Position numbers and translations under genes: made by a program
Shown here: piece after piece, positions 9,454 through 41,042 of the stretch
Numbering within the stretch: position 1 is the first letter of the stretch
Layout of the letters: every line of letters starts with the position of its first letter
The notes under the pieces: generated by a model
Told to the model about the DNA's origin: nothing
What the model saw: only the letters and a program-made list of their open reading frames with translations
Databases searched by the model: none
Source: Closterium sp. NIES-65
Taxonomy: Eukaryota > Streptophyta > Zygnematophyceae > Desmidiales > Closteriaceae
NCBI GenBank assembly: GCA_948144175.1
Contig: CANXME010002453.1
Span: forward strand, 2,288,001-2,352,000
Direction: 5' to 3'
Length of the DNA stretch: 64,000 bases

Positions 9454-12400
9454 ATGGACATAGGATTTCGGCTTAGCCGCCTGCCGGCTGTTTCAGCCAG
9501 CCGGCTGACCGTTGTTTTGACCGCTGGCCGGTTTGGCGCGCTTCGTTTCAGAACATTGCCTGTCGCGCCGTCTTTCGCGGCGGATCGGCTAGTTTGCACA
9601 TCAACGCCGTTTGGGGAATCTATGAAATCTCTTGCGATTCTAAATCGCAGAAGTGGAATAATGGCGAATATGGCGACCTTGGAGGCGAATTCCCGCAGCG
9701 CTTGGCGCCAGGCGAAGTATCGTGTAGTCTGTAACACGCGAAATGGGGTTACCATTCGGGTAACCACCGGCTCTGCGACAAGCAGCAGGAGCAGCAGTAC
9801 CAGCAGCAGGAAGGGGAATGCTGACAAGGCAGAGAAGAGGGAGACGGGGGAGGCGGCGGAAGGAGAGCAGGAGCTTGGCGGGGAAAATCGGCCGCTTAGG
9901 CTGGTGGTGATTGGGGGAGGGGCGGCGGGCGTGTTTGGCGCGATTCGAGCCAAGGAGATGGCGCCTGGTTTGGAGGTCAGAGTGGTGGAGAAGAGTCAGC
10001 CTCTGGGGAAGGTGAGAGGGAAGGGCGGAGAGGAGAGGGGAAGAGGGGAAGGGTAGAGGGGAGCGGGAGGGAGGGGGGGAATGGGGGAGGGGGAGTGGAA
10101 AGGGGGAGGGGCCTGGGGCGGAGCTGGGAGGTTGGATGGGAGTGGTTGGTGGGATTCGAGCCGAGGAGATGGTGCCTGGCTTGGAGGTCCGGGTAGTGGA
10201 GAAGAGTCAACCGCTGGGGAATGTTAAAGTGAAGGGGGAGGGGAAGGAGGAGAGGGGAAGATGAGGAGAAATTAAGCACCACACAGCACAGTACTGCACC
10301 GCACCACGATCTGTACTGCGCCCTGCCAACACAGCACAGCCCAGCACCGCACTGCACCGCACTCCGTACCGCACCATGACTCATGCCGTATCATACCCCA
10401 ACCCACCTGCCTCCTCTCATGCATCAGGTGCGCATATCAGGAGGCGGGCGCTGCAATGTCACCACAGGGCTTGCAGCCGACCCCATAGTAGGTGCAATGT
10501 GCTCCCCATGTGATCAGACATTCCAGCGAGCTGCAGTTTCCAAGGAGAAGGTTTAGCAAAGGAGAAAAACCTTCTCCTTAGAAACTGCAGCTCGCTGGAA
10601 TGTCTGATCACAGGGCTTGCAGCCGATCCCATAGTAGGTGCAATGTGCTCTCCATGTGATCCGTAACGTGTACCATCCTATGGCTCTCCATGTAACGTGT
10701 AACATGTGATGTGCAGCATGTAGTGTTTCATTCTGTCTCCACACCTCGCCCCTTCTCGCGAGTCACGTCACACGCACCTTATAAATTACACGCCAATCAT
10801 CGGCAACAGTAGCTGCTCAAGATGTTTCTAAGTTGACTCATAAAAACCAGACATCCTGTCAACACCCAACCGCTCCCCCCCTCTCAGCACCTATATTAGC
10901 ATCACGAGACCTACCCAGCAGGCCTTTTGGAGCGACCCTAAACCCGAAACCCTAAAGCTCTCTTCGTCTCTATTATCAACCCCAACCCTCTCTCTCTCTC
11001 TCCTCCTCCCTCCCAGCACCTCTCCTCCCACTACCCACGGGGCCATCGCGAGCTCAAAGGTTCCTTCTTCCGCACGCGCGGCCCGGCTGACACCGTCTAA
11101 GTGCTCACGGCCTGACCGACCGACACCCCACTACAGTGCGTCACTCCCTCACTTCTGCTCTCCCCTGCTCAACTTCTCCGCCCCCATCCCCACCGCCCAG
11201 CACCTCTCCTCCCACTACCCAAGGGGTCATCGGGAGCTCAAAGGCTCCTTCTTCCGCACGCACGGTCCAGCAGACACGGTTGAGTGGTTCACCCAACGGG
11301 GGGTGCCCCTCAAGGTATGCTCTCATATGTCTGTGCCTCCACGCCTTGTCCTGATACTGCATGGCGCATGGCCTGTTCTTGTGAACGCACGGCCCGGCAG
11401 ACACAGTCGAGTGGTTCACCCAACGAGGGGTGCCCCTCAAGGTATGCGTGCATATGCCTGTGCTGCACTTTGTCTGTGCTTCTAGGGATGCTGCTGCTCC
11501 CAGGGTCACTGCCTGCTCCCTGTCTGCTCTATTTACAGTCCCTCCCATCCCCATGACAGACTGGCCCAGACGGGCGCATGTTTCCCGTGTCAGGCTCCTC
11601 CCAGTCAGTTATTGACTGCTGGATTTTTTTGAGAATTCTCAAAAAGACTGCTGGTTCTGGTCTCGCTCAGTCACTCGCCCACCCACCCACCCCATGCCAC
11701 TGCCCTCCTTCCCTCAACCCCCCATGGGCCATGGTAGACTGGCCCAGACGGGCGCATGTTCCCCCCGGTGTCAGACTCCTCCCAGTCAGTTATTGTTTGC
11801 CTGCAGTTACCTATCCCTCACACCTTCTTTTCCGCACACTCCCTTCAATTTCTCCACCCCCCTCGCCCCCCCACACCCCATGGCAGACGGACCCAGACGG
11901 GCGCATGTTCCCCGTGTCAGGCTCCTCCAGTCAGTTATTGACTGCCTGCTCTGCGCCTACCTGCGCCGTGTTATTGACTCCACCCACTCCCGTCACTCCC
12001 GCTTCTCCCCATTCTCAATCAACCCCACCCTGCTCTTTCCCTGCCAGACAGAACCAGACGGGCGCATGTTTCCCGTCTCAGACTCCTCCCAATCAGTTAT
12101 CGACTGCCTGCTCTCACAAGCCCAGCAGCTCTCAGGTACACTCTCAGGTGCTCTCAGGTGCATTCTCAGGTGCTCTCAGGGACATTCTCAGGTGAATTGT
12201 CATGTGGATGTCCACGCTGCAGGGGTACTAGCCTCTCACCCTTTGGTCTCCAACTACCTCTTTTCTATCCTTTCATTCTGCCCTCTCCCATTTCTCCTCG
12301 CACCCACCCTCTCATCCCCCTCCCCAAGTGACCATCTCGCCTGGCTGGCCTGTAGCATCCATCGCTCGCACTCCTGCAGGCCAGTTCCTACTGATCCACA

Positions 12401-15400
12401 CTCTCACACTCCATCCACTTCAATCCCCTTTCTCCTTTCCATTCTTTCTCAACCCCTCCTCCCCCACCTTCCAGTGACCATCTCCCCGGGCTGGCCTGTA
12501 GCATCCATCACTCGCACCCCTGCAGGCCAGTCCCTCATCTCCTCCTCCAAGCAGACTCCCACACTCATCAACATCTCCCTCTCTCCTCCCCCTCCCCTCT
12601 CCTCCCTTACCCCCAGTGACCATCTCCCCGGGCTGGCCTGTAGCATCCATCACTCGCACCCCTGCAGGCCAGTCCCTCATCTCCTCCTCCAAGCAGACTC
12701 CCACACTCATCAACATCTCCCTCTCTCCTCCCCCTCCCCTCTCCTCCCTTCCCCCCAGTGACCATCTCCCCGGGCTGGCCTGTATCATCCATCGCTCGCA
12801 CTTCTGCAAACCAGTTCCTGCTGACCCACGCTCTCACCCTCCATCCCTTGATCCACTCTTTCCGATCCTCCGATTCTCCTCCCACCTTCTCTTCCCTCCC
12901 CCAGTGACCATCTCCCCGGGCTGGCCCGTGGCATCCATCGCTCGCACCCCTGCAGGCCAGTTCCTCATCACCTCCTCCAAAAAGGCTCCACCGATTATCA
13001 ATAGCTCTTCCCCTCCCTCCTCCTCCTCCTCCTCCCCTCTCTCCCTCATGGCTGATTTCGTTCTTATCGGCACCGGTGGGTCAATCAAGGTATTGGACCT
13101 TTTTGTTGGGGTGATCTCCGAATGTCATCGGTGTTGTTAATTGATTTCAGCAATTTTCTCGCCCTTTGCAGAGAAAAGTAGATTCGACCCAGATCATCAG
13201 ACTTAGCTCGTTCTGGTCTCCACAAATCTATGCTTATGTTGTTTATTGATTTCAGCAAGTTTTTCTGCCTTCCTTACGATCCTGCCAACATCCTTTCCTG
13301 TGCTCCCCTCATCGATCCTCATTAACCCTCATCACCCCTCATAACTCCTCAACCTCGCCCCATACTCTCCCCTCCTCCTCACCCTTCCTCAACCCTCCTC
13401 ACCCCTCTTCACCCCTCTTCACTCCTCCTCACCTCTTCCCACCCCTCTCAACCCCAGGGGCATTCCATGGCAGCATCTCTCGGTCACTCCATCATCCCTC
13501 CCTGCCCTTCCATCCTTCCTCCCCCAAAAGCATCTCACAGTTTCACCCCATTTCACCCCTTCCCACCCGTCCCCGTCCCCCATCACCCCTTCGCATCTCT
13601 CCCCACCCCTCTCTACTACTGCAGGGTCATGACATGGCATCATCCCTTGGTCACTCCATCATCCCTCCCTGCCCGTCTCTCTTCACTTTCAACATCCCTG
13701 ATTCTGCTCTCACTGCTCTTGCGGGGGTGAGTGAGTGAGTGAGGGAGTGAGTGAGTGGGTGAGTGAGTGAGCGAGTGAGTGAGTGAGTGAGCGATTGAGT
13801 GAGTGAGTGAGTGAGTGAGCGAGTGAGTGAGTGAGTGAGCGAGTGAGTGAGTGAGTGAGTGAGTGAGTGAGGTCCCCTTCCTCCACCATTTCCCTTAACT
13901 CCTTGCATATGTTTTTCTTTGTCTTTCCATGCCCTCAATCCAGGTGTCTCTTGAAGACGTGTCTCTGAAGCTGCTTGTTCCATCCTCCCCTTCCTCCTCC
14001 TCCGCCCTTTCCCCCCTCACCTCTACCACTGCTGCCACCACCACCACCACCACCGCCGCCACCGAGACTGCTGATGCTGCCGCTGCCACTGCTTCTGCTC
14101 CTGCCGCCGTTGCCACCACTGCTAAAAACAAGCCCAAGCAGCAAAAGGACAAGGAATCATCCTTCACGCAGCGAGGGCCCCTGCTGTTCACGCATTGGGG
14201 AGTGAGCGGCCCAGCCGTGCTGAAACTCTCAGCCTGGGCTGCCAGAAATCTGCACGCTTCTGCCTACACTGGTGGGTGGGTGGGTTGGTGGCTCCGGTGG
14301 GGTTACACTGGTGGGTGGTGGGTGGGTTGGTGGCACTGGTGGGGTTACGCTGGTGGGTGGTGGGTGGTGGGTGGGGGCTCCTTTGACCTCTCGCCGTTGC
14401 TCTTCACGCACTGGGGAGTGAGTGGCCCGGCTGTGCTGAAACTCTCTGCCTGGGCTGCCAGGAACCTGCATGCTTCTGCCTACACTGGTGGGTGGGCGGA
14501 TGCACCTTTTAGTGGGCGCATAAGTTTCTTTCCCTTCACCCCAAGTGCGCCTCTGTCCCCTCACCCCGCTCCCCTCATCCCTCCTCTTCACGCACTGGGG
14601 ACTGAGCGGCCCGGCTGTGCTGAAACTCTCAGCCCTGGCTGCCAGGAACCTGCACGCCTCTGCTTACAACGGTGGGTGGGTGGGTGGCACTGGTGGTGGG
14701 GTGGGGGGGTTACATTGGTGGATGATGGATGGAGAGTCCTCTCTCCCGTCCCCCTCCTCTTCACGCACTGGGGACTCAGCGGCCCAGCTGTGCTGAAACT
14801 CTCTGCCTGGGCTGCCAGGAACCTGCACGCCTCTGCCTACACTGGTGGGTGGGTGCGCTTTTGGTGGCAGTGGTGGGTGCGTGGGCCTCTTTCCCCTTCA
14901 CCCCCGGTGCGTCTCTCTCCTCCCACCTCTCTTCACGCACTGGGGAGTGAGCGGTCCAGCTCTGCCTAAACTCTCAGCCTGGGCTGCTAGGAACCTGCAC
15001 GCCTCTGCCTACACTGGTGGGTTGGGGTTGCTGGGCTGGGATGGCTGGGTTGGGATGGCTGGGATGGCTGGCTCAAGAAAGGCTCAGGGGTTTCCTGTAT
15101 TGGCTACTACTTTATGTAAGCTTTTTGTTCTCTATCTCACCCATGTGTTCCTGCTGTTCTCTCCCTCCCTCCCTTACCCTCTGTCTCCCTCCTTTCCTCC
15201 CTCTCTCCCTCTTGCAACCATAGTGGCCAAATTTACCCCTCATCTCTCTGCTGCTGCTCTCCTCTCTGCACTCACAGCTTCACCTCCTCACCTTTGTTCC
15301 CTCCCCCTTTCCTCCCTCCCTCCCTCCCTCCCTCCCTCCCTCCCTCCCTCCCTCCCTCCCTCCCTCCCTCCCTCCCTCCCTCCCTCTTTCCCTCCTACCA

Positions 15401-18400
15401 GCAGCACTAGTGGCTGACTTTACCCCTCATCTCTCCGCTGCTGCTCTCCTCTCTGCACTCACAGCTTCATCTCCTCACCTTTGTTCCCTCCCCCTTTCCT
15501 CCCTCCCTCCCTCCCTCCCTCCCTCCCTCTTTCCCTCCTACCAGCAACACTAGTGGCTGACTTTACCCCTCATCTCTCCGCTGCTGCTCTCCTCACTGCA
15601 CTCACAGCTTCATCTCCTCACCTTTGTTCCCTCCCCCTTTCCTCCCTCCCTCCCTCCCTCCCTCCCTCCCTCCCTCCCTCCCTCCCTCCCTCCCTCTTTA
15701 CCTCCTACCAGCAACACTAGTGGCTGACTTTACCCCTCATCTCTCCGCTGCTGCTCTCCTCTCTGCACTCACTGCTGCCAAATCATCACTTCAGGTGATT
15801 TCCACAAGAATAGGAGACTTCACTCTTCCACCCTCCGTTCCCTTCAACAAACCAATTTTCTTCCCTGCTGGATGTTCTTACCCACACTCACTCGCTCCCT
15901 CCAACACTCGCACAAGCCGTTTAACCGCCACTCATTAACTCACGCACTCACTTCCTCACTCACTTACTCGCTCCCTCACTCTCTCACTCACTCACTCACA
16001 TTCGCCTCTAACGCTCGCAGAAAAAACAAATCGGCACCACTGCCCCAGTGGAGCTGAACCTTCCCAGAAGGTTCTGGTGCTACCTGCTCGAACGTGCTGT
16101 GAGTAACAATTTTGCAATCGGCAAGCCCTTTTCCTTGCTTCCTTGTAGGCTCCAGAACGTTTTTCAGAGTTTACTCTGGGCAGACACATGTGTCTAAAAG
16201 CGTTATCAGTGACCGCTGCCTTCGCCCTCCCGAATTGACTTTTGAGTCGACTCAAAACTCACCTTGTAGGCTCCACAATTTTTTTAGAGTTCCCTCTGGG
16301 CACACGTGTCAAAAGCGTTATCAATGACCGCCACCTTCGCCGTCCCAACCCCAGTCGTCTTTTAGAGGCGTCAGGAGTACTATGTCCCCTTCACCTGCCA
16401 AAAATCTTCTGAGACGTCTCAAAACTCTTCTGAGACGTCTGAAAAACCTTCAGAGGCGCCAGGAGTATTATGTCCCCTTCATCTGCCAAAACTCTCCCCC
16501 TCGCCCTTCCCTCCTCTCACCCCCCCCTCCCCTCTCCTCCACTTCACCTCCACAGGTCATCCATCCAGAGACCCTCTGGGCCCACGTGTCAAAGGCCCAT
16601 TTGCTCACCCTTGCTGATGTCATCCACAAAGCTGAGCTGGCAGTGGCGGGGAAGGTGAGGAGAGGAGAACCATGAGTGAATTTTTTTAGGCCCCTCACAA
16701 TTAGACCTTATTGATGCCCCTGATTGATTGCGTTTGCTCCCCTAAATATTATTTTTTAGTTTTGTTCGATTCATTCCAATTCAGTTTTGTACTGAATCAG
16801 TTCGGTTCTGTTCCGTCCAGTTAACATGGTTGTTTTGCTACTGTTTGTGAGCCTAAAAAAATGTTGCTGTTTGATTGAGGAGCTAATCATAATTTCCATC
16901 ATATGTGTTTTGACAAATTTCTGCCTCTTTTCCTGTCCTTTTCTCTCCTCTCCTCTCCTCTCCTCCACTCTCCCCTCCTCTCCTCTCCCCTCCTCTCCTC
17001 TCCCCTCCTCTCCTCTCCTCTCCTCTCCTCTCCTCTCCTCTCCTCTCCTCTCCTCTCCTCTCCTCTCCTCTCCTCTCCTCCCCTCTCCTCTCCTCTCCTC
17101 CCTTTTCCTGCAGGGTCGATTTAAGGATGAATTTGTGACTGCAGGTGGTGTCCCTCTAAAGGAGGTATTTTTTTCTTCTCCCATTCCCTCCCAGTTCCTG
17201 TCTCCCATTCCCGTCTCCCATTCCCCTCTCCCATTCCCCTCTCCCATTCCCCTCTCCCATTCCTATCTCCCACTCCCCTCTCCTCCTCCTTCCTTCCTTC
17301 TTCCATGCGTCAATCTCGTTCGTCCGCTCTTCTCCCTCAATCCCATACCGATTCCTTCCCAAAACCCTCTTCTCGCCTTTCCCCTTTGCTTTGAGATCTC
17401 TTCCTTCCCTCATTGCGCCCCCTATTACCTTTACCTTTCTGACCCTTGTCGCACCTCAAGACCAATCTCACCACAATTAAGATTTTCCCAACACCTATTC
17501 TGCTTTTACTCTAATATTTGCCTCTTTCCCCACTCTCCCCACCTCTTTCTCCGATCTCCCCCGTTGCCTTTGCCATCCCATGTCACACATCAAGGTCAAT
17601 CTTACAACAATGGAGCGTCATTTCGTTCCCAACCTCTTCTTTGCTTTACTCTCTTTAACCCCCTTTCCCCTTTCCACCACCTGTCTCCCTCATCTCTTCC
17701 CGATTGCCTCCCCCATCCCATGTCACACATCAAGGTGAATATTGCAACAATGGAGAGCCGGCTCCTTAGCAACCTCTTTTTTGCAGGAGAGGTGAGTTCC
17801 TCAATCGAGTTTTGATACATCCCGAAACTTTGCAATTTCTTCTTTGCAGCCGAGGTGAGTCCCTCAAGCTGACCACGATGGAGAGTCTCTTTTCAACACG
17901 TGAGCAACAGAACTGACTTTTGAGTCGACTCAAAAGTCAGCTCGGTATAATGTCACACGGTATCTTTTCTACACGCTTTGCAGCCGAGGTGAGTCCCTCA
18001 AGCTGACCACGATGGAGAGTCTCTTTTCAACACGTGAGCAACAGAACTGACTTTTGAGTCGACTCAAAAGTCAGCTCGGTATAATGTCACACGGTATCTT
18101 TTCTACACGCTTTGCAGCCGAGGTGAGTCCCTCAAGCTGACCACGATGGAGAGTCTCTTTTCAACACGTGAGCAACAGAACCCTCAAAAGTCACCTCACC
18201 CTCCTCAGGGAAACCTCTCTCTCTTCAATTCATGGAGAAATGTTTCGCTCCTGTTGATTCCTCGTTGTGGCACAGATACTGAACGTGGACGGAATCACAG
18301 GAGGCTTTAACTTCCAGGTAATGTGCTTGGCATTTGTGTACTCGCCTTAGCATGACATATCTGCATGCATGTGCACACGCCCATTGCACCATACGCGCGA

Positions 18401-18845
18401 CTTTTGAGTCGACTCAAAAGTCACATGGCGTATCTGCATGCATGTGCATACGCCCATTACACCATGCGCGCGCATATATGCACTCACGTTCATGCATAGA
18501 TGTGCATTCCGCGCCATGCGTGCTTGCATGCATATGCATGTGTACGGATGTGAATGCATTCAAACACATGTGAGCATCTGATTGTCGCATGGTGATGCAC
18601 TTGAGTGTAGAAGCTTTCAAATGTACCAGCTTTGTCCGAATGGCCTTGCTGTTCTTGCAAGAATACAAATGTCCGCACCGATGAAATTCCGTGCTCTGTC
18701 TAATTTTCCAAATACGTTAGGCCCCTTTTTTCCCATTTGCCTTAAAATGTTTCAATCCCCCTTCCAGAATGCGTGGACTGGAGGCTACATTGCAGGAACT
18801 GCCATAGCAGCGGCAGCCAACAAATTGCACTCACCTGACATCTAG
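9454..18845 (+). CDS. HI0933-family FAD-dependent oxidoreductase, 14 exons
   Basis: Model: 9454-10011, 10428-10487, 11201-11314, 12048-12135, 12905-13089, 13625-13726, 13944-14271, 15721-15794, 16021-16098, 16556-16654, 17114-17164, 17735-17791, 18276-18317, 18768-18845. All junctions are GT-AG, phases agree, 637 aa. Residues 150-186 hold a Rossmann FAD site (VIGGGAAG at 152-159, acidic VVEK strand end); 187-206 the hallmark [12 protein letters not shown]; then [78 protein letters not shown] at the C-terminus. These are the landmarks of the HI0933/YhiN-like flavoproteins present in bacteria and plants; their substrate is not established. The N-terminal 145 residues are Ser/Arg-rich and may be an organelle transit peptide (inference). 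Exon 7 encodes a Ser/Thr/Ala-rich insert. Introns contain many partial exon copies, listed separately. Exon 4 and 5 edges are least certain. Confidence 0.82.
10152..10222 (+). repeat. Partial copy of flavoprotein exon 1 end
   Basis: In intron 1 the sequence for [20 protein letters not shown] repeats the last codons of exon 1 with several substitutions. The copy ends AATGTT instead of the exon donor AAGGTGAG, so it lacks a good 5' splice site. It is best read as a decayed tandem copy. Confidence 0.8.
10465..10661 (+). repeat. 51-bp direct repeats flanking a long hairpin
   Basis: Direct repeats at 10465-10515 and 10611-10661 differ at about two positions and contain the end of exon 2 plus its donor. 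Between them is an inverted repeat: arms 10511-10554 and 10567-10610 (44 bp, one mismatch) around a 12-nt loop. Arms begin and end TGATCA. The result is a second copy of the exon 2 donor downstream of the hairpin. Confidence 0.9.
11017..11441 (+). repeat. Three tandem copies of flavoprotein exon 3
   Basis: Copy 1 (from 11017) has an acceptor and reads [15 protein letters not shown] but meets a TAA stop at 11097. Copy 2 (11201-11314) is intact with acceptor CCCAG and donor GTATGC and is used in the model. Copy 3 (about 11386-11441) keeps only the 3' half, ending GVPLK with the same donor GTATGC. The flanking intron sequence is duplicated too. Confidence 0.85.
11560..12135 (+). repeat. Four tandem copies of flavoprotein exon 4
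   Basis: Copies begin at 11560, 11738, 11887 and 12048, each after an AG. All encode PDGRMFP. Copy 1 is interrupted after SVIDCW by a palindrome insertion; copy 2 has an extra proline codon; copy 3 has lost one base and is out of frame; copy 4 is intact ([19 protein letters not shown]) and is the one used. After copy 4, six CTCTCAG-type units, most followed by GT, run to about 12192, so the true donor is ambiguous. Confidence 0.85.
12329..13089 (+). repeat. Five tandem copies of flavoprotein exon 5
   Basis: Copies start at 12329, 12475, 12617, 12759 and 12905 (spacings 146, 142, 142, 146 bp), each after an AG and reading TISPGWPV. Copies 2 and 3 are almost identical over the whole 142-bp unit. 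Only copy 5 extends into [13 protein letters not shown] and has a donor (GTATTG at 13090), so it is the functional exon in the model. Confidence 0.88.
13458..13726 (+). repeat. Two tandem copies of flavoprotein exon 6
   Basis: The copy at 13458 reads [15 protein letters not shown] after CAG, then runs into pyrimidine-rich sequence with no donor. The copy at 13625-13726 reads [15 protein letters not shown] on to [15 protein letters not shown] and has a GTGAGT donor; it is the one used. Confidence 0.85.
13727..13871 (+). repeat. (GTGA)n microsatellite at the intron 6 donor
   Basis: Immediately after exon 6 about 35 GTGA/GAGT units follow, with occasional GGGA, GGGT, GCGA and GATT variants. The repeat therefore presents many consecutive GTGAGT 5' splice-site consensus sequences. 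Confidence 0.95.
14187..15022 (+). repeat. Five copies of the exon 7 3' end
   Basis: The block encoding [17 protein letters not shown] through SAYTG starts at about 14187, 14402, 14587, 14760 and 14932. The first belongs to exon 7. Each copy ends ACTGGTGGGT or AACGGTGGGT, keeping a donor, but the later four have no AG close upstream, so they are unlikely to be spliced as exons. All remain in frame; copy 5 has PALPKL in place of PAVLKL. Confidence 0.85.
15224..15794 (+). repeat. Four copies of flavoprotein exon 8 with (CCCT)n spacers
   Basis: Copies begin at 15224, 15411, 15554 and 15721, each right after TAG. They encode [14 protein letters not shown] (AKFTPHLS in the first). Only the last has a donor (CAG-GTGATT at 15795). 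Spacers are (CCCT)n runs at about 15300-15390, 15490-15535 and 15637-15700, doubling as long polypyrimidine tracts before each acceptor. Confidence 0.85.
16141..16348 (+). repeat. ~90-bp direct repeats around an 18-bp palindrome
   Basis: Left copy 16141-16234, right copy 16262-16348, both starting CCTTGTAGGCTCC and containing CTCTGGGCA and AAAAGCGTTATCA. The 18-bp perfect palindrome TTTTGAGTCGACTCAAAA is at 16240-16257 between them. CTCTGGGC(A)CACGTGTCAAA also matches the start of exon 10, so both copies look like decayed exon 10 duplicates. Confidence 0.88.
16363..16491 (+). repeat. ~40-bp direct repeats around a doubled palindrome
   Basis: Left copy 16363-16403 and right copy 16451-16491 share AGGAGTA, TATGTCCCCTTCA and CTGCCAAAA. 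Between them TTCTGAGACGTCTCAAAA is followed by a second, less perfect TTCTGAGACGTCTGAAAA. The core is ACGT rather than TCGA. Confidence 0.82.
16941..17103 (+). repeat. (TCCTC)n pentanucleotide microsatellite
   Basis: About 30 units of CTCTC/TCCTC lie in intron 10 of the flavoprotein gene directly upstream of the exon 11 acceptor (CTGCAG ending at 17113), forming a very long polypyrimidine tract. Confidence 0.95.
17595..17791 (+). repeat. Two copies of flavoprotein exon 12
   Basis: 17595 onward reads [17 protein letters not shown] after CACATCAAG, then continues without a donor. 17735-17791 reads [19 protein letters not shown] with a GTGAGT donor and is used in the model. Both have the same upstream CATCCCATGTCACACATCAA stretch. 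Confidence 0.85.
17847..18190 (+). repeat. 134-bp tandem repeat, ~2.5 copies, each with a palindrome
   Basis: Units start at 17847, 17981 and 18115. Each holds CAGCCGAGGTGAGT and ACGATGGAGAGTCTC, resembling the start of exon 12 (TMES). Copies 1 and 2 contain a 28-bp perfect palindrome (17913-17940 and 18047-18074) with the TTTTGAGTCGACTCAAAA core. In copy 3 the left half is deleted and CTCAAAAGTCA remains. Confidence 0.93.
18351..18472 (+). repeat. ~49-bp direct repeats around a 24-bp palindrome
   Basis: In intron 13 of the flavoprotein gene, copies 18351-18398 and 18423-18472 share TATCTGCATGCATGTGCA, ACGCCCATT and CACCAT. Between them (18399-18422) is a 24-bp perfect palindrome with the TTTTGAGTCGACTCAAAA core. 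Confidence 0.9.
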
Positions 18846-24887: not shown

Positions 24888-26622
24888 ATGACGAGAAGCC
24901 TGTCCCTCCGCGTGCCTCTCCTCCAGGTCCTCCTAGCGCTAGCCGCCGTCCTCGAGATTGCCTCGCCTGCAAGAGCAGTGGCAGTATCTGGCAACAGGCG
25001 CCCATCACCCCCCGACTTATGGCCTCCGTATGAAATCCTAGGAACTTGCTCGCACACAGGTAAGACATACTGCATGATATCACGCATGTTGATTTTTTTT
25101 TCTTTCTTTCTTTCTTTCTTCATCCCTTCTATAGCTCTATTGGTTAATTGGGTGATTGAGTAACGTTCGGACCTTGCTGTGGGCCCTTCCGTGATGCCCC
25201 GTCGCAGGTGCGATCAACACTACCATTTCGCCAGATTTCGTCGGGACGACGTGGCGAGGATGGGGCACTTCGCTCGCGTGGTTCGCGAACTACGTCGGTG
25301 GCTTGCCGCAACAGGAGTTGACCACGATTCTAGACCTCCTCTTCGATCCCGTTTCTGGCTTGGGTCTAAACATCGTACGTTACAATATCGGAGGTGGACA
25401 CAATAAAAAACTCAGCCCTCAGTTTCAAGACTACAGTCAGGATTCGTATTGGCGTGGAGTGCCGGGTTTCAAGCCGACGAAGGACGGGCCGTACGATTGG
25501 AGCGCGGACGAGCGGCAGCGGAACGTGCTGATGGGAGCGAAGGAGAGAGGCGCGAATGTCTTCGAGGCGTTTTCAAACAGCCCGCCCTGGTGGATGACTG
25601 TGACGGGTGACGTGGCAGGCTCGCGCAGGAAAAGGACGACAAATTTGCGAGCCGAGTATGAGAGCGCTTTCGCGGACTACCTGACGACCGTCGTGGCGGA
25701 GTTCGCGAAAAGATGGGGGGTAACTTTTGATTCGCTGGAGCCGTTTAACGAGGCGTTGGAAGGGTTCTGGGTGGCGGGTATGGACCACGAAGGCTGCTCG
25801 TTTAACCCACCCGAAATGGGGCGTGTCATCAAGTACACTTCTGACTCGCTAAAAAAGAAAGGGTTAAAAACGAAGCTGGCTGGCGTGGATAGCTGGTACG
25901 GAGGTACGTCGCAACTGCCTCAGCTGGACAACCACCAGCTACTAACGAGGATAAACGTTCACTCGTACGTGAATAAGTACGACGGTGGGAACGCAGCTGC
26001 GTCTTACGAAGAGAAGTTCGGCAGTATTCGTGACGCGGCGAAAATTATGGGCAAGGAGGTCTGGGTCAGCGAAGCAGGGCCAATAAGCAAAGGAGGAAGC
26101 TTCTGGGATCTTTCGCTTTACATGGCGCGAAATGTTATCGAGAGCGTCAATATCATGGAGGCCTCAGCGTATGTCATCTGGCAGGCATACGATTTCGGCG
26201 CGCACTGGTCATTCATTCGCTTTCCGTCGTACTATCGTCCGCCGTACAAGGGCCGAATGATACAGCCCAAGGCGAACAGGCGGTTTTGGCTCTTCAAGCA
26301 TTTCACGCTGCTTGCCAAGCCTGGCTCCAAGCCAGTCAGGGTAGGTTCGCGGTGCCAGCACGGGATGAGTGCGTTCTACAACCCTCAAGACGCGCAACTT
26401 ACAGTGTTTATGGTAAACCAGGAGGCCGGGGACCGACGAGTGACGCTTAATCTGGAGGGGTTTAGGACTAACGTGGGAGGAAGCACCAACGTGGTTGTTA
26501 GGAGGACGTCCGAGTTTGCGAATTTCAGCAAAAAGGTTTTCACGCAGTTCAAGGGGAAAGCTAGGCTCACGTTGTGGAGGCAGACCTTCGTCTCTGTCAC
26601 ATTCACCAATGTGGCATACTAG
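24888..26622 (+). CDS. GH30 endo-beta-1,6-galactanase-like protein, copy 1
   Basis: Model: exon 24888-25059, intron (GTAAGA...CAG, phase 1), exon 25208-26622; 528 aa. A cleavable signal peptide (LLQVLLALAAVLEIASPARA) predicts secretion to the cell wall. The barrel carries WRGWGTSLAWFANYVGG, NIVRYNIGGGHN, FEAFSNSPPWWMT, SLEPFNEALEGFW with acid/base E239, NVHSY and EVWVSEAGP with nucleophile E346; a C-terminal beta domain follows (HGMSAFYN, FMVNQEAG). These are GH30 clan-A features and most like endo-beta-1,6-galactanases, which cut beta-1,6-galactan side chains of arabinogalactan proteins. The substrate is inferred from family resemblance. The intron contains (TTTC)n. Confidence 0.85.
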
Positions 26623-27888
26623 AATTTGCCTGGTAGCTCATCATTCGGTTGAATTTCTGATTTGGTCATGGGCTCTCCTTAGATTGGATGTGCTATCTAT
26701 TTGTACCACTCATCTGACAACTCTTCTGAGCACATCCACGGATTCCATGAATAGGTGGCCTTCTGTAGGACATACTGATGCCGATCAGGTGGTTACTAGC
26801 TGATCACCTCAAACTAAGAACTTATCGATTATGCTGCATGCACCAACCAAAATCCGCTATTACCCTACGTAGACAGTGATAGCAGAAGAAGATACTGACA
26901 GATTTCAAAATGTGAAGTATCTTACAATTTCAGAAATTGGTGTAGACTTCACTGCTCAAAATGCTTCTGCCGTGTATTTGGTATCTGTTGCTTTCTCCCT
27001 CCCGCGCCACTGAAGTTGCTGATTCGCTGCTCAAGAAAAACAGCCCTTGGTCTGTTCCTAATACGAGATGCTGCCGTTAATGTCACGCGCTCGTTGCGCA
27101 TACCGTTACCGAATCGCTCATTGCCTGTGCGGTTCGACTCGAAATGATGCAAATGTGCCCCTTCGAAGTTCACCCTTGTTTCCAAATTCCACCACACGGC
27201 AAAATCCTCCCCCATTCTGCGTCACTCCACTTGATCCCCTCGACCATAATAAGGATGTCCCTTGGATTGGATTGGAGTTGGGACCCTTGGTCGGTGAATC
27301 GGCTACTTGTATTGAGAGATGAGACCAGACACTTTATGGATGTCCATTGTCCATGCACATGATTATCCGACCATTGGCCCCCATCCCGTGCGTGAACAGT
27401 CGTTTGCAATTTGCTGTGCGATTGCGGTCCCTTGCAGCAACATGACTTTTGAGGTGGCTCAAATAACACGAGTTCTTATAGCAGGCCGACAACACTGATA
27501 GAGTCACGACTTTCTGGCTGGCACGGGTCGCGCGACTACTGTAACAATCTACTAGTGCAGCCTGTAAGGACCAGCCGATACTAGACGGTGGTGCCGTCCC
27601 GGATCAGCGATCACGCACGCAGTCTAGTCGAGAATCCGAATTTCAAGTCAAGTTCTCTTGACCGCCCGTAGGTGTACTAGTTCTCCTGAGTTTTTTAGTC
27701 AGCAGCAATGAAACACATTCGCGATTCCATCATACGGGGAGCTACTTCGTCGCTTGAGGCGATCTTAAGCGTTTCGAGGACAGTGATTGCTAGAAGCAGG
27801 CGAAGCAGGCTCAGTCTAGGTTTAACAGCTTTCATGATCATCTAGTCGAACTCCCAGAAGGATCCCCACTCATCCGTCTAGAGCTAGT
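26623..27888. other. Intergenic, part of a segmental duplication
   Basis: No gene. From about 27000 the sequence resembles 31374 onward (GCTGATTCGCTGC, TGTTCCTAATACGAGA, later TTATAGCAGGC and ACAACACT). The upstream region of GH30 copy 2 was therefore duplicated together with the gene to give copy 3. A decayed palindrome (TTTTGAGGTGGCTCAAAT) is at about 27446. Confidence 0.6.
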
Positions 27889-29786
27889 ATGACGATGGCG
27901 CGAATCCCACTCATACGCTTCTCTCTCAGTGTGTTGCTGATCGTAACCCTCGTCGAGATCGTCGTGCATCCGGAAACAGTGTCAGCAAAAAAAGGTGGCA
28001 GTTCTCGGCGCCAGCCGCCGCCACCCGATTTGAACCCGTCGTCTGAAATTTTCCCGACCTGCAAATTTTCAGGTGAGGCTTCAAAACTATTTGAGTAGTG
28101 CCTTCCAGTGCAATGGTGGCTGAAGAAATGTTTGAGTGAACTCAGGAGTGTCTCCATGTCCGATAATGCCACCCTGATTATGTTCGTCGGAAATTTGGGT
28201 CTGTTCGCGCTGCTGATCAAGCAGATCATGCTTATGCTGAGTACGATGTGGATCAGGCAGTTCAAGACGCCTATTGCTATCGTGGTTATCATACTGATCA
28301 TATTACTCTGGGCCTTGGTAAAGCGATCCTTTGTTTCGTGTCACAGGCTGAGCCGCTGCTGTTTCTTTCGTGGGCAGGTGGTATCAATTTCACGGTTTCG
28401 CCGAAATTCGTCGGTACTACGTGGCGAGGATGGGGAACTTCGCTCGCCTGGTTCGCGAATTACGTTGGCGGTCTGCCGCAGAAGACGCAGAGCGAAATGC
28501 TCGACCTCCTGTTCTCGAAAAATAAACTCGGTCTGAACATCGTTCGTTACAACATCGGAGGCGGACACAACAAGAATCGCAGCCGCCAGTTTTATCAATC
28601 GCAGCCTACGGATTGGAGGGGCATTCCGGGTTACAAGCCGACGGAGAAGGGGCCGTACGATTGGAGCGCGGACGAGCGGCAGCGGAGAGTGCTACAGGGA
28701 GCGAAGGAGCGAGGCGCGAATATCTTCGAGGCGTTTTCGAACAGCCCGCCGTGGTGGATGACCAAGTCGGGTGACGTGGCAGGCCCCCGGTTGATTGGCC
28801 AATCAAATTTGAAGCAAGAATACGAGGGCGCTTTCGCGAACTACCTGACGACCGTCGTGGAGCAGTTCGCGAAAAAGTGGGGCATTACTTTCGATACGCT
28901 GGAGCCGTTTAACGAAGCGATGGAGGGGTTCTGGCAGGCGGGAAATGCGAATGAGGGCTGCTCGTTCAACCCATCCGAAATGGGCCGTGTCATCAAGTAC
29001 ACTTCGGACTCGTTAAAGAAGAAGGGTCTTAAAACGAAGCTGGTTGGGGCGGACAGCTGGCCACGCTCAACTGCGGCGCTACCGCAGGTGCCCAACCATC
29101 AGCTACTATCGCGGATAAATGTTCATTCCTACATGAACAAGTACGAGAGCAGCGACATTGCGAAGATTTACAAAACGAGTTTCGGGAGTGTTCGCGACGC
29201 GGCGAAACAGCTGGGGAAGGACGTTTGGGTCAGCGAAGCAGGACCCCTCTGCCAATCAGGAAGCTTCTGGGACGTTTCGCTGTACATGGCGAGAAACATT
29301 ATTGAGAGCGTCAATATCATGGAGGCTTCAGCGTACGTGTACTGGCAAGCGTACGACACGGGAAATGGATGGTCGATGATCGACTTTCCATCGAACTATC
29401 GACCTGGATATTCGGGATCAATGAAACCACCCAAACCCAACAAGCGTTTTTGGCTGTTTAAGCATTTTAGGACGCTTGTCAAGCCTGGAACCAAGCCGAT
29501 TAAGGTAGGTTCGGACTGCGAGCATGGAATATCTGCGTTCTACAGCCCAGACGAGAAGCGGGTCACGGTTTTTATCGTGAACCAGCAAGCGACAGAACGG
29601 AAAGTGAAGATTAGTCTCCAAGGATTCAAGACAAACTCGAGAGATAACACACAAGTGATTGTCAGGAGGACGTCTTGGTCGGTGAATCTCAGCAAATCAG
29701 TTTACAAGCGGTTCAGCGGGGAAGGAATTGTCACTGTGTGGGGACAAACGCTTGTCTCTGTCACTTTCACTAACGTCCATGTCTAG
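27889..29786 (+). CDS. GH30 endo-beta-1,6-galactanase-like protein, copy 2
   Basis: Model: exon 27889-28072 (GTGAGG donor, phase 1), exon 28378-29786; 530 aa. The N-terminus IRFSLSVLLIVTLVEIVV is a signal peptide. Acid/base E241 (TLEPFNEAMEGFW) and nucleophile E348 (DVWVSEAGP) are spaced 107 residues apart, as in copies 1 and 3. Exon 2 has the same length as in copy 3 (1409 nt) and most residues are shared, so these two are a recent pair. The intron has repeated GATCA-rich stretches with a similar arrangement in copy 3. All catalytic and structural motifs are intact. Confidence 0.86.
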
Positions 29787-34776: not shown

Positions 34777-35427
34777 CTAAAGGTCCACGTCCCCAAAGTT
34801 ACCTCTAGATACCGCACGAGCTCGCTCGTGGTTCTTGGCACGAACCACAGCCACCAATATCACAACTACCAACATAAATACTCCAAAAACAACTCCAAGC
34901 ACTGTAGCTACTATCGCGCCACTGCTGAGCGAGCCACTACTTTCCGACCCTGTGTACGACGGCGCAGGGGCAGATCCCAAGTCCCCCGTTTTCTCCGCAG
35001 ACGCCTTGTCCGAGGTGGCGGGCAAGGAAGCGGGAGCGGGTGACCAATACTCGCTATTGTCAACTCCGTTGCTAGCTGTGTTGCTGCTGTCGGCGGCGAG
35101 ACCATCTATATCTGCATACGGTGCTGAGCTTGGGGCCGAGGTATCAGGAGCAGGCGAAGGGATTGGAGGGGATACGGACCCTTCCGCAAGATCCGCTAAA
35201 CTACTAGTCGAGTCGATCTTTTGGCAGAGAGTGAAGGAGGGGGCGAATGTGAAGAGACATGAAAGAATCAACAGGCTGGAAAATCGCTGGCAAATTGAGT
35301 GTCTAAGAGTCTCGTGAAGGGCTCGTATCCGAATCCTACTACGGGAGCCATAGTTGGGCGGCGGACGATGGTAAGAGCTATGATTAACGACAGAATCCAG
35401 GCGCCCGCCTTTTTTACTGACAGCCAT
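34777..35427 (-). CDS. Single-pass membrane protein with AGP-like motifs
   Basis: 216 aa from the first ATG (MAVSKKGGRLDS), no intron needed. An N-terminal hydrophobic segment (SSLLILSCLFTFAPSFTLC) acts as signal or signal anchor. A Ser/Ala/Pro-rich stretch follows with SPAPDTSAPSSAP, SPAPASLPA and SAPAPS, the dipeptides that are hydroxylated and O-galactosylated in arabinogalactan proteins. A strong transmembrane helix (AIVATVLGVVFGVFMLVVV) and a short basic tail (RAKNHERARAVSR) end it, giving type I topology. I do not recognise the family. It sits convergent with GH30 copy 3, whose likely substrates are AGP glycans; the link is an inference. Confidence 0.6.
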   Translation of the reverse strand: MAVSKKGGRLDSVVNHSSYHRPPPNYGSRSRIRIRALHETLRHSICQRFSSLLILSCLFTFAPSFTLCQKIDSTSSLADLAEGSVSPPIPSPAPDTSAPSSAPYADIDGLAADSSNTASNGVDNSEYWSPAPASLPATSDKASAEKTGDLGSAPAPSYTGSESSGSLSSGAIVATVLGVVFGVFMLVVVILVAVVRAKNHERARAVSRGNFGDVDL

Positions 35428-36993
35428 AGTCGACAGTGACTCGGGGTCTCCACGTAATATAGTTGCTCGTGCGTAGATTAGCAATGGCTAGGTGTTTTAG
35501 TACCATATCTGGTCGAGAACGTGGGAGCATCCATTGTATGCAGAAAATGCGGAAGTACCGTATGTGGTGCAGGCTTCATGTGAACATTGGTTGGGGTGTG
35601 GTGGGGTCTTGGTAGTACTCGCTGTTGTGTCTTGGCGATGGTGAGTATATACGCATGTGAGACCAACCCAGTTATTTCCACTATTACAACGATAATATTA
35701 TGAACAATCATATACCCCGTCACGTCAGGACATTAAACCTCCTATTTAAATCCGAAGTACGATTTAATATTTCCTGAATTGGTTTTCTGACGCTTTATGT
35801 TGTGGCCTGCTTCTGGTCAAGTTGGTACAGCCACAGTATGGAAAAGAAGGCTAAATAAATCAATAACATTCAGCCTGGTTGCACTCGTTTATGCCAACGA
35901 AAATGCTCACTGTTTCGTTCGGAATATCCCCGCTAAGGAGTGAGCGAAATCGCCTGTCAGAGGAGTTCCATGAGGTCGCACCGCTTCAATGTGGCATTCG
36001 ACCCCCAATCGCACTCAGCCTCAAACGTCCAGGTGACGGCTGTGGACCCGTTTGCGACCTATTGAGCTGTACGATGTAGCTTGCCAACTCGGTCAATTTA
36101 AAATGCGATCCAATTTTCGCAGTGCGTGTTTGCGAATGCGATCTTTTCGGGCAGAACCACGCGGCTGCCCGTGTTTAGGGTTGGGGCTCCCCTTACCGCA
36201 TGCCATCCAGATGGGGTTTATACTTTTCTGACCGCGGGCAGATAACGACCCCTCAGCTTCTTCCTCTGGGGATCGCATTCGCAAACCGCGCTGGCCTAAT
36301 TGGATTGCAGCTGAAGTTGTCCCTTAGCGACTCGTCCAAATCGTTCTGCCATATGAAGACCGTCAATTTCCTGGAAAATACTGTCGCAGATAATCGTTGG
36401 AGTGGTCCGCCTGGGAGGTGGTCAACAGACAGCTGGGTAGGAAGACAGGTGGCGAACCGCGCCTCCAGACCAAAGTGGCGCAATGTCCCGAGAGATTGCG
36501 CGCGCCATGTGCTTGGGGAGAGATCCCCGACCAAAGCCACAAAAATTGGAAAATGTCGCGCTTCGAGCCCAAAGTAGGAATGTGAGTCGAGTGTGAGCCC
36601 AATTTTGGAATGCAGTCGGTACTTTCTGTGTCACCCATGTTACTTCCGCCCCTCGATCGAATCCGGAAGGTATTATCGCGCCTCACGCGCGAATTTGAAG
36701 CGCGCAGTCCCCGATGCAAATCATTCTCTCAAATCTACCATAGGGCGCGTCGAACACTGGCTGATCGCCGTCTATATTTGCCAAGAGCTTACAACAGAAT
36801 TCGTTGTTGAATTCTGGCTAGTCTTGAAGTAAACTTTCAGACAAACGGCAAGACCGGTTTTGAATACGCTAGCACTTCCTTGTAGCCTCAAGCCTTCAAA
36901 CCTGTGCACGAATTCCCTCCCTCCACAGTGCTTCAGGAAAACAGAATAACTGTTGTCAGGGTTCTACCCTAGATTTTCTACTGCATCTCCAGC
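35428..36993. other. Intergenic, nothing recognised
   Basis: About 1.57 kb lies between the small membrane-protein gene and GH30 copy 4. No ORF has a recognisable domain and no repeat stands out. Confidence 0.5.
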
Positions 36994-38990
36994 ATGGCAA
37001 GTAGCACCGGGGCGGCTCTTTATAGGCGGAGACCCCCTCCACTGCCATTGCTGTTCATAGTGTCCGCGTTATTGAGTTCCTCCTTCAGCGCCGCCCACGC
37101 GCGCGCGTTGCATCGCGACAGCATCCGCCCGGCATCAACAGCGGGCGCAGCGGGGCGATACTCGCTCGACGAAATCACCATTCACGCGCGTATGCGGCGC
37201 GAACGGCGCAACCGGAGCGTCCGCCTGTTTTCCGTCGACGAATCCAAGTCGCTCTCCCCGCCGCCGTCGCTACAACCGGTCAACGAGCTGTTCGACATCT
37301 GTAGCTTCCCCGGGCCAATCAGCTTGAATATCACTCCCTCCTTCATCGGGACGAGGTGGAAGGGATGGGGCACGTCTCTGGCTTGGTGAGTCCATTCATT
37401 TACTCAGCATCCACTTCCTCTCTCATTCTTTCGCCGCCTTCGGGCACCCTCCCCCCACCCTCTCCTCCCCTCCTCTTCTTCTCTTCTTCCTTCTTCCTAA
37501 CCCCCCAGTCCTTCACTTGTCAAACTACTCCCCCAATGCTCGCCCACCCTCGCCAAGTACCCTCCATGCTTCGACTTCATCTAAAAAATGCCACATTGTT
37601 CACATTCCCGCTTGAACATTATCTCTCCCCTTGATCCACCAGGCAAGGCAACTACATCGGAGGCTTCCCCAAGGATCGCATGGATACGCTGCTGGACCTC
37701 ATCTTCCACCCCCGGAAAGGGCTCGGACTGAACATCGTCCGCTACAACATAGGCGGAGGGCACAACGAAACACTAAGTCCGCAGTTTTCTAAAGATGTGA
37801 CGACTGGCTGGAAGGCCATACCCGGGTATTGGCCGGCGGAGGCTGGGCCGTACGATTGGAGCGCGGATCAACGGCAAAGGAATGTTCTGTTTGGCGCCAG
37901 GGAGCGCGGCGCGAATATTTTCGAGGCATTTTCAAACAGCCCGCCGTGGTGGATGACTGTGTCGGGTGACGTGGCAGGCGCGTCGGAGAAGAACCAGCCA
38001 AACCTGCAGCCGCGCTACGAAGGGAAGTTTGTGGATTACCTCACTACAGTGGTGGAGAAGTTCGCAAAAGACCCGGCTTGGAATTTGACTTTCGATACGC
38101 TGGAGCCGTTTAACGAGCCGCTGGAAAACTTCTGGAACGCGGGGAACGGGCAGGAGGGGTGTAATTTCGACGTCCCCGCTATAACCCGTGTGCTGTGGGG
38201 TACTCTAGACGCTTTGAAAAAGAAAGGACTCCAGACGAAGGTCGCCGCGTTTGATAGCTGGACGGAGGACACGGTTTCGGCGATCAACTCTATAGCGAGG
38301 ATAAATGAAGTGAAGCGGATCAACGTCCATGGGTACATGGACCCGGCCCCGAGTAACCAGGATCCGGTCAGCTACACCACCCAGATGTACAGTAAAATGC
38401 GCGATATAGCCAAGGGGATGGGGAAGGAGGTTTGGATAAGCGAATCCGGGCCAATGGGGCGATTCGGACAACCATTCGACCTGTCACTGTACATGGCGCG
38501 AAACGTGATCGAGACCGTCAACATCCTGCAAGCATCTGCGTACGTATACTGGCTGACGTACGATTCTGACCCTCGCTGGACAATGATCCACTTCCCGTGG
38601 TACCCTGCGGGGTATTCAGGTACAGTGAAAAACCCGAAGCGGTCTAAGCGATGGTATATATTCAAGATGCTGACGAGTCTCGCGAAGCCTGGAAGCCAGC
38701 CGCTTACAATCCCCGCGGAATGCTCTCACGGCATCGCGGGGTTCTTTAACGAGGCGGACTCTGTAGTGAGTCTGTTTATAGTGAATCAAAAGGCGGAGCC
38801 GAAACAGTTATCAGTGAATCTGCAGGGGTTCCGGATAAACTCGAGGGGGATCACCAAGGTGTTTGTTCGGCGAACATCCTGGGTGCATAACATGGTGCAG
38901 AGACAGGATGGCAGCGGCGGTACAGCAAGCATCACTATTGAGGGGCAAAGCTTTGTCTCCGTACATTTTACCAACGTTAGGAGAATATGA
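36994..38990 (+). CDS. GH30 endo-beta-1,6-galactanase-like protein, copy 4 (diverged)
   Basis: Model: exon 36994-37385, intron (GTGAGT...CACCAG, phase 2), exon 37643-38990; 579 aa. The N-terminus is longer than in copies 1-3: a hydrophobic segment (LPLLFIVSALLSSSFSAA) then about 70 basic residues before the barrel (FIGTRWKGWGTSLAW). Acid/base E289 (TLEPFNEPLENFW) and nucleophile E398 (EVWISESGP) are present, 109 apart. The intron interrupts the Trp codon of GTSLAW, a different position and phase from copies 1-3 but the same as in copy 5, so copies 4 and 5 form a second lineage. Secretion or membrane anchoring to the wall side is likely. Confidence 0.84.
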
Positions 38991-38998
38991 TTTGGCTT

Positions 38999-39107
38999 GG
39001 TAGGTAGGTGTGGTGTAGGCGAAAGGGTTTGGTTGTCCCTTCCTCAGAGACGTGGTAGGAAGGCGTGGTGTAGGCTCAAGGGGTTGATTGCCCCGTTTCA
39101 GAGACAT
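38999..39107. repeat. ~54-bp tandem duplication
   Basis: Two diverged copies of GGTAGG(T/A)AGG(T/C)GTGGTGTAGG...CAGAGAC follow the stop of GH30 copy 4, ending at about 39053 and 39107. Confidence 0.75.
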
Positions 39108-40510
39108 ACCATACTAGACTAATTAACATACGGTATGCTGGTGCTCAGTAAGCACTATAGCCCGCACTACTACTACTCCAAAACATATGTGAAGGTTACA
39201 GATAAGAAAGACTGACCACATCAGTTACTACTCTCGGTCTAGAAGCTATATTTGCAGAACTGACTACAATATCCTCTGCCCACGTGGTCTTGCGAAGAAC
39301 AGCCTCTGTTTGTCCCCCCACATTCAGCTTGAACCCAGTCAGCCTCACATCAAACATAGCATCCTCTGCCCTCTGAATCACTATAAATACACTCACTGTC
39401 CGTTTCTCCGTACTGTAGAAAGCAGCTACAGTGTGCTGGCACTTCCGCGGCACCACCAACGGCAGGCTCCCAGGCCTCACCGGATCCGTGAACTGCTTTA
39501 GCATCCAAAACCGTTTTTGCAACACAGGAGATTCAAACGGTCCCATGTAACCAGGAGGGTGGTCCCAGTTTATCCTGATCACTGACCACTTGTCACTGCT
39601 GTCGTATATTTGCCAATAATTTTAGGCAGAAGCTTCCAGGATGTTGACTGATTCAACGATGTTTCGCATCATGTAGAGCGAAAGGTCGAAGGTACTACCA
39701 TCCCTGAGTAACGGACCTGACTCAGACACCCATACTTCCTTCTGGAGAGATTTGGCAAGCCGCTTCATCTGGGTGTAACGCGCAGTTGTCAACAACTTAG
39801 CCTGTCCAGTTGTCACGTTCATGTACATGTGTAACAGCAGAGGGTAACCGTGCACGTTGATCCTGTGCAGGAAGGTATTCCCAAGGACCAGTGGTAACCC
39901 TATGCTGGTTAAAACCGCGTTGCTGTCAACCCCAACCAGCTTTGTCTTGAGCTTCCTTCTCCGCAGAGCCAGCCAAGTCTTGAGAAGAACTCTGCTCATC
40001 TCAGGTGGGTTAAAGTTGCATCCTTCCTGCTCCATCCCGGCCACCCATTGTCCCTCCAGCCCTTCATTAAACGGCTCCAGCGTATCGAATTCAATGTTCC
40101 CCAGCGCCGGGATTTTCGCAAACCCCTCCACGACTTTTACGAGGTATTTGGCAAACTTCCCCTCGAACCTCCGCAGCAGGTTTGTCCTCCACGCCTTCTT
40201 TGCCCCTGAGACGTCTTTACTCGCGGTCATCCACCAGGGCGGGCTGTTGGAAAACGCCTCGAACACGTTCACCGCGCGGTCCTTGGCTCCCAGCAGCACC
40301 GCCTGCTGCCTCGAATCCGCCGTCCAGTTGAACCCCGCTGCCTGCGCCGGCCAGTACCCCGGCATGGCTCGCCAGCGCATGGAATAATCAGTGTATAGCT
40401 GAGGGCTGTATTGAGGGACGGAGCCGCCGCCTATATTGAATCGCACTATATTGAGGTTGAGGCCCGAGGGGAGGAACATGAGGTCCAGCAGAGGGTCCAT
40501 CGCCGCCTGG

Positions 40511-40783
40511 GGGAACCCGCCGATGTAGTTGCCCAGCCTGGGGGTGGGCGGAGGGATTTTGGGGAGGGGAAGGAAAAAGGATGAATGGGGGAACCCGCCG
40601 ATGTAGTTTCCCAGCCTGGGGTGGAGGTGAGGAGAGGGGGAACGGGGTGGACGCAGGCTGAAGGATGGAGTGCGGGGGAACCCGCCGATGTAGTTGCCCA
40701 GCCTGGGGGGAAAGGGGGAACGAAGGGGAGGGGACGGAGACATGGTGAATGGGGGAATCCGCTGATGTAGTTGCCCAGCCGGG
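40511..40783 (-). repeat. Four tandem copies of a GH30 exon start with its acceptor
   Basis: On the minus strand CCCAGGCTGGGCAACTACAT-type sequence encoding GNYIGGFP occurs at 40511-40540, 40589-40620, 40677-40707 and 40752-40783, each with a pyrimidine-rich tract and AG. The copy nearest the rest of the exon (40511-40540) is the functional one; the other three are stacked upstream in the intron and keep the frame open. Confidence 0.88.
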
Positions 40784-40916
40784 TGGTGGAAGTAGGGGAA
40801 GGGCAAGGTAGGAAGAGTGAGGTGGGGGAAAGGGAGATGTGGGAAGAAGGGAGAGGTGGGGGGTTATAGGGAGAGGGAAAAGTTGAGTGGGGAGGAGAAA
40901 GCGTGTGACTGGGAGT

Positions 40917-41042
40917 CTCATCCTCTGGAACAATATATAGAAAACCACACATTGTCAGTACAATCACCTCTTTTGAGGCGCCTCAAAACTCATCCTCTGG
41001 AACAATATATAGAAAACCACACATTGTCAGTACAATCACCTC
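40917..41042. repeat. Perfect 54-bp direct repeats around an 18-bp palindrome
   Basis: 40917-40970 and 40989-41042 are identical over 54 bp (CTCATCCTCTGGAACAATAT to CAATCACCTC). TTTTGAGGCGCCTCAAAA occupies exactly the 18 bp between them. The repeat lies in an intron of the GH30 pseudogene, starting two bases inside the donor. Confidence 0.95.

Follow-up and report, generated by a model that had tools for sequence, protein, structure and literature searches.

Palindromes with TTTTGAG/CTCAAAA arms between the copies of variable-length direct repeats at six loci in a stretch of Closterium DNA

Small tandem duplications at staggered DNA breaks have reportedly been studied in rice by Vaughn and Bennetzen. 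It is well established in mouse and human cells that repair of breaks with long 3′ overhangs can yield such duplications, by polymerase alpha-primase/CST fill-in together with end joining, and breaks with 43-bp 3′ overhangs have served as an experimental substrate (PMC8355091). The bacterial elements IS1549 and IS1634 make long target duplications of variable length, from 8 to 514 bp, for which no mechanistic model had been proposed according to a 2008 paper (PMC2266710). Here we describe seven sites in 64 kb of DNA from Closterium sp. NIES-65 (this whole stretch is called the window below), at each of which a palindrome or hairpin lies between the two copies of a direct repeat. Six of them share the palindrome arms TTTTGAG/CTCAAAA.

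The Closterium sites resemble the staggered-break duplications in that a flank of tens of bp is duplicated around a junction that can carry additional changes (PMC8355091), but their filler is a recurrent, sequence-specific palindrome. They share long target duplications of variable length with IS1549 and IS1634, but those elements are bacterial and belong to a family 1.5–2 kb in length with a transposase (PMC2266710), whereas the Closterium inserts are ~18–26 bp, non-coding and in an algal nucleus. Judging from its sequence, we take the window to be nuclear DNA of a Closterium alga. Miniature inverted-repeat transposable elements (MITEs) and foldback elements also place inverted-repeat inserts between target duplications, and the 93-bp hairpin at 10516 resembles such an element; however, a fixed-length target duplication and a conserved interior would be expected of them, and neither is seen at the Closterium sites. 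In twin-primed retrotransposition the two target ends may each be extended and then join inverted, with a target duplication that varies in length, but the sites showed no retroelement body or recognised 3′ end, although no search was aimed at these. The main text of PMC10407611 has no occurrence of “palindrom”.

The motif TTTTGAG-NNNN-CTCAAAA (TTTTGAGNNNNCTCAAAA) has six exact copies at five loci, starting at 11627 (core AATT), 16240, 17918, 18052 and 18402 (all TCGA) and 40971 (GCGC), and the sixth locus holds an imperfect pair, the near copies at 16407 and 16428 with core ACGT. With up to two mismatches allowed there are 11 matches where 0.25 are expected, and none of 100 shuffles reaches 11. 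Between 7 and 47 kb there are six perfect palindromes of at least 18 bp, against a mean of 0.1 in 60 local-Markov sequences, and all six belong to the TTTTGAG set. On these two counts we reject chance palindromes. The arms recur at loci up to 29 kb apart, and the copy at 40971 is more than 22 kb from every other exact copy. The four cores are self-complementary at all six loci that have flanking repeats, and among the 11 mismatch-tolerant matches the core lacks this symmetry in three (16683, 21132 and 27447). These counts and the alignments confirm the first-pass annotation of this DNA, which had reported seven places with a palindrome between direct-repeat copies, six of them with common arms and variable palindromic cores. 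The seventh place, at 10516–10608, is a hairpin. With repeat boundaries defined by alignment, the sites are as follows.

10463..10515, + strand: left copy of a 53-bp direct repeat (hairpin site), 51/53 identical to 10609–10661
10516..10608, no strand: 93-bp insert, a long imperfect hairpin with arms of ~39 bp unrelated to TTTTGAG
10609..10661, + strand: right copy of the 53-bp direct repeat
11614..11622, + strand: left copy of the 9-bp repeat GACTGCTGG, 9/9 identical
11623..11645, no strand: 23-bp insert, ATT at left plus a 20-bp perfect palindrome, core AATT
11646..11654, + strand: right copy of the 9-bp repeat GACTGCTGG
16141..16231, + strand: left copy of a diverged repeat, 91 bp (gapped alignment, score 48.5)
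16232..16261, no strand: 30-bp insert, GAAT plus a 26-bp palindrome with one mismatched pair, core TCGA
16262..16346, + strand: right copy of the diverged repeat, 85 bp (gapped alignment)
16364..16403, + strand: left copy of a 40-bp repeat, 37/40 identical to the right copy
16404..16451, no strand: insert of two tandem imperfect palindromes, core ACGT
16452..16491, + strand: right copy of the 40-bp repeat
17843..17913, + strand: copy 1 of the 71-bp repeat U, 71/71 identical
17914..17939, no strand: 26-bp palindrome P, core TCGA, within a perfect 28-bp palindrome
17940..17976, + strand: 37-bp filler V, with 13 bases near the right end that agree with part of U in 12 positions
17977..18047, + strand: copy 2 of U, 71/71 identical
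18048..18073, no strand: second copy of palindrome P (134-bp tandem period)
18111..18181, + strand: copy 3 of U, 71/71 identical
18183..18193, + strand: right half-palindrome alone, CTCAAAAGTCA, just after copy 3 of U
18351..18399, + strand: left copy of a 49-bp repeat, 90% identity (43/48 over 18351–18398/18424–18471)
18400..18423, no strand: 24-bp insert, core TCGA
18424..18472, + strand: right copy of the 49-bp repeat
40917..40970, + strand: left copy of a 54-bp repeat, 54/54 identical
40971..40988, no strand: insert of exactly 18 bp, a perfect palindrome, core GCGC
40989..41042, + strand: right copy of the 54-bp repeat

The cleanest case is 40917–41042, where 54 bp, the 18-bp perfect palindrome and the identical 54 bp follow one another. 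The diverged copies at 16141–16231 and 16262–16346 have 76 of 91 columns identical in gapped alignment, with 9 mismatches and 6 gap columns. Across 17843–18181 the order is U-P-V-U-P-V-U (U 71 bp, P 26 bp, V 37 bp), and the motif copies at 17918 and 18052 represent one event, tandemly copied. At all six palindromic loci, direct repeats of variable length directly adjoin short filler, the duplicated lengths being 9, 40, 48–49, 54, 71 and ~91 bp (53 bp at the hairpin site). The range of 9 to about 134 bp given in the first-pass annotation for the duplicated flank stands at its lower end only: 134 bp is the tandem period of the U array (71+26+37), and the repeat there is 71–72 bp, or 110 bp with the filler. 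The accompanying argument, that a fixed-length target duplication does not explain the sites, holds, since the lengths vary from 9 to ~91 bp.

Because the window is rich in local repeats, the position of a repeat relative to the palindrome matters. In a tight-flank test, which asks for both copies to stop no more than 8 bp from the palindrome edges and for a gapped score of at least 32, five of the six loci pass (16240, 16407, 18052, 18402 and 40971), as does the 10516 hairpin; 11627 (9-bp repeat), 27447 and the first array copy at 17918 score 0. Random positions pass in 1.2% of cases between 7 and 47 kb and in 5% of cases in the repeat-rich 10–20 kb region. By our own arithmetic, with loci and slack not fixed beforehand, the probability that at least five of six loci pass at 5% each is ~2 in a million. 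An ungapped flank test, passed at a score of at least 9, is passed by four of the six exact palindromes versus 4.5% of random window positions.

The fillers were also approached from the side of the repeats, by listing direct-repeat pairs between 7 and 47 kb with filler of 5–110 bp, the copies being 20 bp or longer with 80% identity. The filler holds a perfect palindrome of 12–22 bp in the pairs at 16141/16160/16196 (one locus), 16364, 18351 and 40917, and the longest in every other listed pair is at most 6 bp. The 10516 hairpin counts among the latter because it has a loop, 11627 is missing because its copies are shorter than 20 bp, and the list also lacks the 17918 array. From the side of the inverted repeats, 71 have at least 10 pairs, and the flanking repeat score is at least 9 in five of them (10506, 11624, 18041, 18397 and 12630); four are sites described here and 12630 lies in a tandem exon array. 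Those at 16236 and 17907 are not among the five, and 40971, with 9 pairs, is under the 10-pair limit.

Two tandem duplications of an ordinary kind, with non-palindromic filler, occur at 38998–39094 (42 bp, filler 13 bp) and 42168–42239 (31 bp, filler 10 bp).

Such cases lend some weight to the idea that all the sites are ordinary local tandem duplications with filler, a few of the fillers being palindromic, with the TCGA group spread locally and the remainder coincidence. So do the many host-gene exons that stand in several tandem copies without palindromes, and the 5% of random positions in the 10–20 kb region that pass the tight-flank test. We nevertheless consider this improbable: it is opposed by the excess of palindromes of at least 18 bp over expectation (6 versus 0.1) and by the distance of 40971 from any other exact copy, and the listed fillers hold either a TTTTGAG-type palindrome or none longer than 6 bp.

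Palindromes are fragile, and one could suppose that the palindrome came first: a pre-existing palindrome would form hairpins that stall replication, and slippage would copy the neighbouring stretch across, the hairpin being skipped on the second pass. The half-palindrome after copy 3 of U counts for this order. Against it, none of the six TTTTGAG loci with a self-complementary core lacks a flanking repeat; palindromes without repeats at background rate, the outcome that the first-pass annotation had said would refute its claim, were sought in the window, and the imperfect palindrome at 27447 has no repeat. A palindrome without flanking duplication, as an ordinary short palindrome would be, is thus found at none of the six loci.

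Control DNA, which was viral and prokaryotic and not algal, points the same way. At least 120 viral-contig stretches contain TTTTGAGNNNNCTCAAAA, and 114 matches were tested, those too near a stretch end being skipped; among the 114 matches listed, two have self-complementary cores and none has tight flanking repeats. Of 11 perfect palindromes of the same form from viral and prokaryotic contigs, none has flanking repeats, the nearest (L127) scoring 7. The cores of these 11 are TCGA (4), AATT (6) and CTAG (1) only, about eight of them are independent (L119, L126 and L128 share one context, L121 and L124 another), and L097 and L119 belong to both the 11 and the 114. The 18-mer with core TCGA has no match in the viral contigs. 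A general attraction of duplications by palindromes was not seen in these controls. The palindrome-first order also leaves the common arms unexplained, and we judge it the least probable of the accounts considered here. We think an assembly or adapter artefact unlikely, as the repeat copies have diverged to differing degrees and the cores differ.

Evidence on the order of events comes from paralogous exon copies compared with the 11627 site. When exon copy 11545 is aligned to its paralogous copies at 11872, 12033 and 11723, two of the three (11872 and 12033) have a single GACTGC and no insert. These copies without the palindrome count against its having come first, and may serve as weak empty-site evidence for 11627. 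In addition, 40971 and 17918, with identical repeats, have perfect palindromes, and where the repeats have diverged the palindrome carries a single mismatched pair (16240) or more than one (16407 and 16428). That palindrome decay roughly tracks repeat divergence fits a single event making both, without proving it, and we think that one event probably did make both. The first-pass annotation had offered either a very small insertion or a break-repair scar; of these options, insertion and duplication in one event is the part we favour, whether by a mobile element or by repair.

The mechanism that we tentatively favour, at a little under an even chance, is a single event per site that, through a staggered break, the joining of identical tails and fill-in, inserted the palindrome and duplicated the target, leaving the site as its scar. 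Nicks on opposite strands, some tens of bp apart, would leave long single-strand ends. Both 3′ ends would then be extended on a shared template by one and the same short stretch, which ends in TTTTGAG and a few further bases; two such identical tails could pair only where they are self-complementary, which would give the palindromic tetramer, and fill-in of the overhangs would convert the staggered target into two direct repeats. The variable but self-complementary core favours such tail joining, since joining of identical ends permits any self-pairing core. Core symmetry with differing cores at six loci, versus 2 of 114 among the matches listed in unrelated DNA, is counted for this reading. 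The insert edges differ by locus, from exactly 18 bp at 40971 to additional ATT at 11623, GAAT at 16232 and the 37-bp V at 17940, and the extra bases and V would fit end joining better than a precise transposase. As to the source of the filler, the TTTTGAG palindrome recurs without a nearby second arm, no further TTTTGAG or CTCAAAA being present for 1 kb around 40971 or for 4 kb around 11627; yet V has some likeness to U, and there is the half-palindrome at 18183. A hairpin-copying rule, in which core bases derive from upstream bases, was tried by eye, fitted two core types only and was dropped.

A close rival, possible but in our view doubtful, is a minimal terminal-inverted-repeat transposon that consists of two ends only and is moved by a transposase that gives long variable target duplications, as with IS1549 and IS1634. 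It would account for a fixed motif at loci up to 29 kb apart, and the Closterium duplications are indeed long and variable like those of IS1634, whose repeats together with those of IS1549 span 8 to 514 bp (PMC2266710); they lack the fixed length that is characteristic of DNA transposons and MITEs. The 11-bp arm TGACTTTTGAG also resembles a transposon end: it is found at 16236, 17914, 18048 and 27443, and with one mismatch at 18398 and 21128, and together with its complement it has 31 occurrences with up to two mismatches, versus 10.2 in shuffles. These 11-bp arms are confined to the TCGA group and 27443, the 7-bp arms recur across loci, and, against this account, the insert edges are not constant. 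Moreover, the cores differ by locus while their halves always match, which speaks against one master element because copying from a master would keep the core. Among pairs separated by at most 3 kb, with no more than three mismatches in total, the window has no longer element with TGACTTTTGAG ends and flanking repeats, and no transposase-bearing copy with the same ends. We know of no eukaryotic transposon with such target duplications.

At 27443–27467 lies TGACTTTTGAGGTGGCTCAAAT, which has the same left arm as the TCGA palindromes, a core GTGG that is not self-complementary and one arm mismatch.

Several observations weigh against the tail-joining mechanism and its single event. No shared template for the tails was found, and the tetramer always follows directly after TTTTGAG, whereas tails copied on different templates might have paired at one position here and another there. 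The three TCGA loci, all inside 2.2 kb, have 21–25 identical bp and a near-identical palindrome in common; they look as if copied as a unit, and the independent loci may therefore be four and not six. The half-palindrome at 18183–18193 can be read as a local template that perhaps supplied the arms, or else as a damaged copy. The 27447 near-palindrome has no flanking repeat by alignment. The palindrome at 18402 is a perfect one of 24 bp despite repeats that differ at 5 of 48 positions, and paralog similarity at 11627 stops at GACTGC, showing only that one GACTGC is old. Among the flank tests, 16240 fails as well when the slack is reduced to 5 bp, and in the ungapped test it scores 0 and 17918 scores 7 (the latter also scores 0 in the gapped test, in both cases because V separates the palindrome from the next U); the 5% background in the repeat-rich region counts here too. 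Finally, all palindrome and duplication counts, and with them the recurrence itself, come from this one 64-kb window. For this reason we give no mechanism as much as an even chance; the description of the sites themselves is firm.

The sites between 10.4 and 18.5 kb lie within or at the edge of introns, as placed by exon matches, of an intron-rich HI0933-like flavoprotein gene at ~9.6–18.3 kb (9622–18317) that matches P0121 (Closterium sp. Naga37s-1). About eight of its 15 exons, by our own reading, stand in two to five tandem copies, and P0121 residues 230–277 and 406–435 occur five times each. On the minus strand, a GH30-like reading frame has its 5′ end ~165 bp from the 40971 palindrome, which lies beyond it. 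The GH30 glycosidase at 28248–29786 has its five best matches in Closterium (sp. NIES-68 and NIES-54), at 66–76% identity and 90–93% query coverage. GH30 endo-galactanase-like genes are adjacent at 25303, 28248 and 37680 (Pfam), with 32888 (+) and 39622–40806 (−) recognised by translation likeness only. A Copia-like polyprotein of 2030 aa occupies a single open frame at 776–6868, with fragments of Copia-like frames at ~48–51 kb and ~55–62 kb, all recognised by eye. Scans of viral contigs with Copia and GH30 queries gave patterns in 17 and 4 stretches, respectively, none confirmed as a relative. A 34-bp hairpin (ACTAGGGCCTAGGC...) occurs twice, ~1 kb apart, at 44205–44238 and 45258–45291. A tRNA scan of the window found none, and no Rfam family reached its gathering score there. 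Among the predicted proteins P0001–P0056 the motif L-S-x-L-K has four matches (P0025, P0041, P0047 and P0050), with no visible repeat within 25 residues on either side, and F-E-x-x-Q has none.

Extended beyond the window, the tail-joining mechanism would mean that Closterium nuclei contain dispersed tiny palindromic inserts, each rebuilt at insertion as a perfect palindrome by the joining of two identical TTTTGAG ends at a self-complementary tetramer, with duplication of ~10–90 bp of target. We raise this as a possibility that we think rather unlikely, and the same applies to its corollary that such inserts are a mobile scar of which neither the body nor the target duplication is fixed. If it were true genome-wide, it would be a repeatable, sequence-marked route to local duplications in a relative of land plants, with the palindrome as a tag on duplication junctions through which their rate, age and mechanism could be measured directly. 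Eukaryotes would also gain an example of long target duplication of variable length, for whose bacterial examples, according to PMC2266710, no mechanistic model had been proposed.

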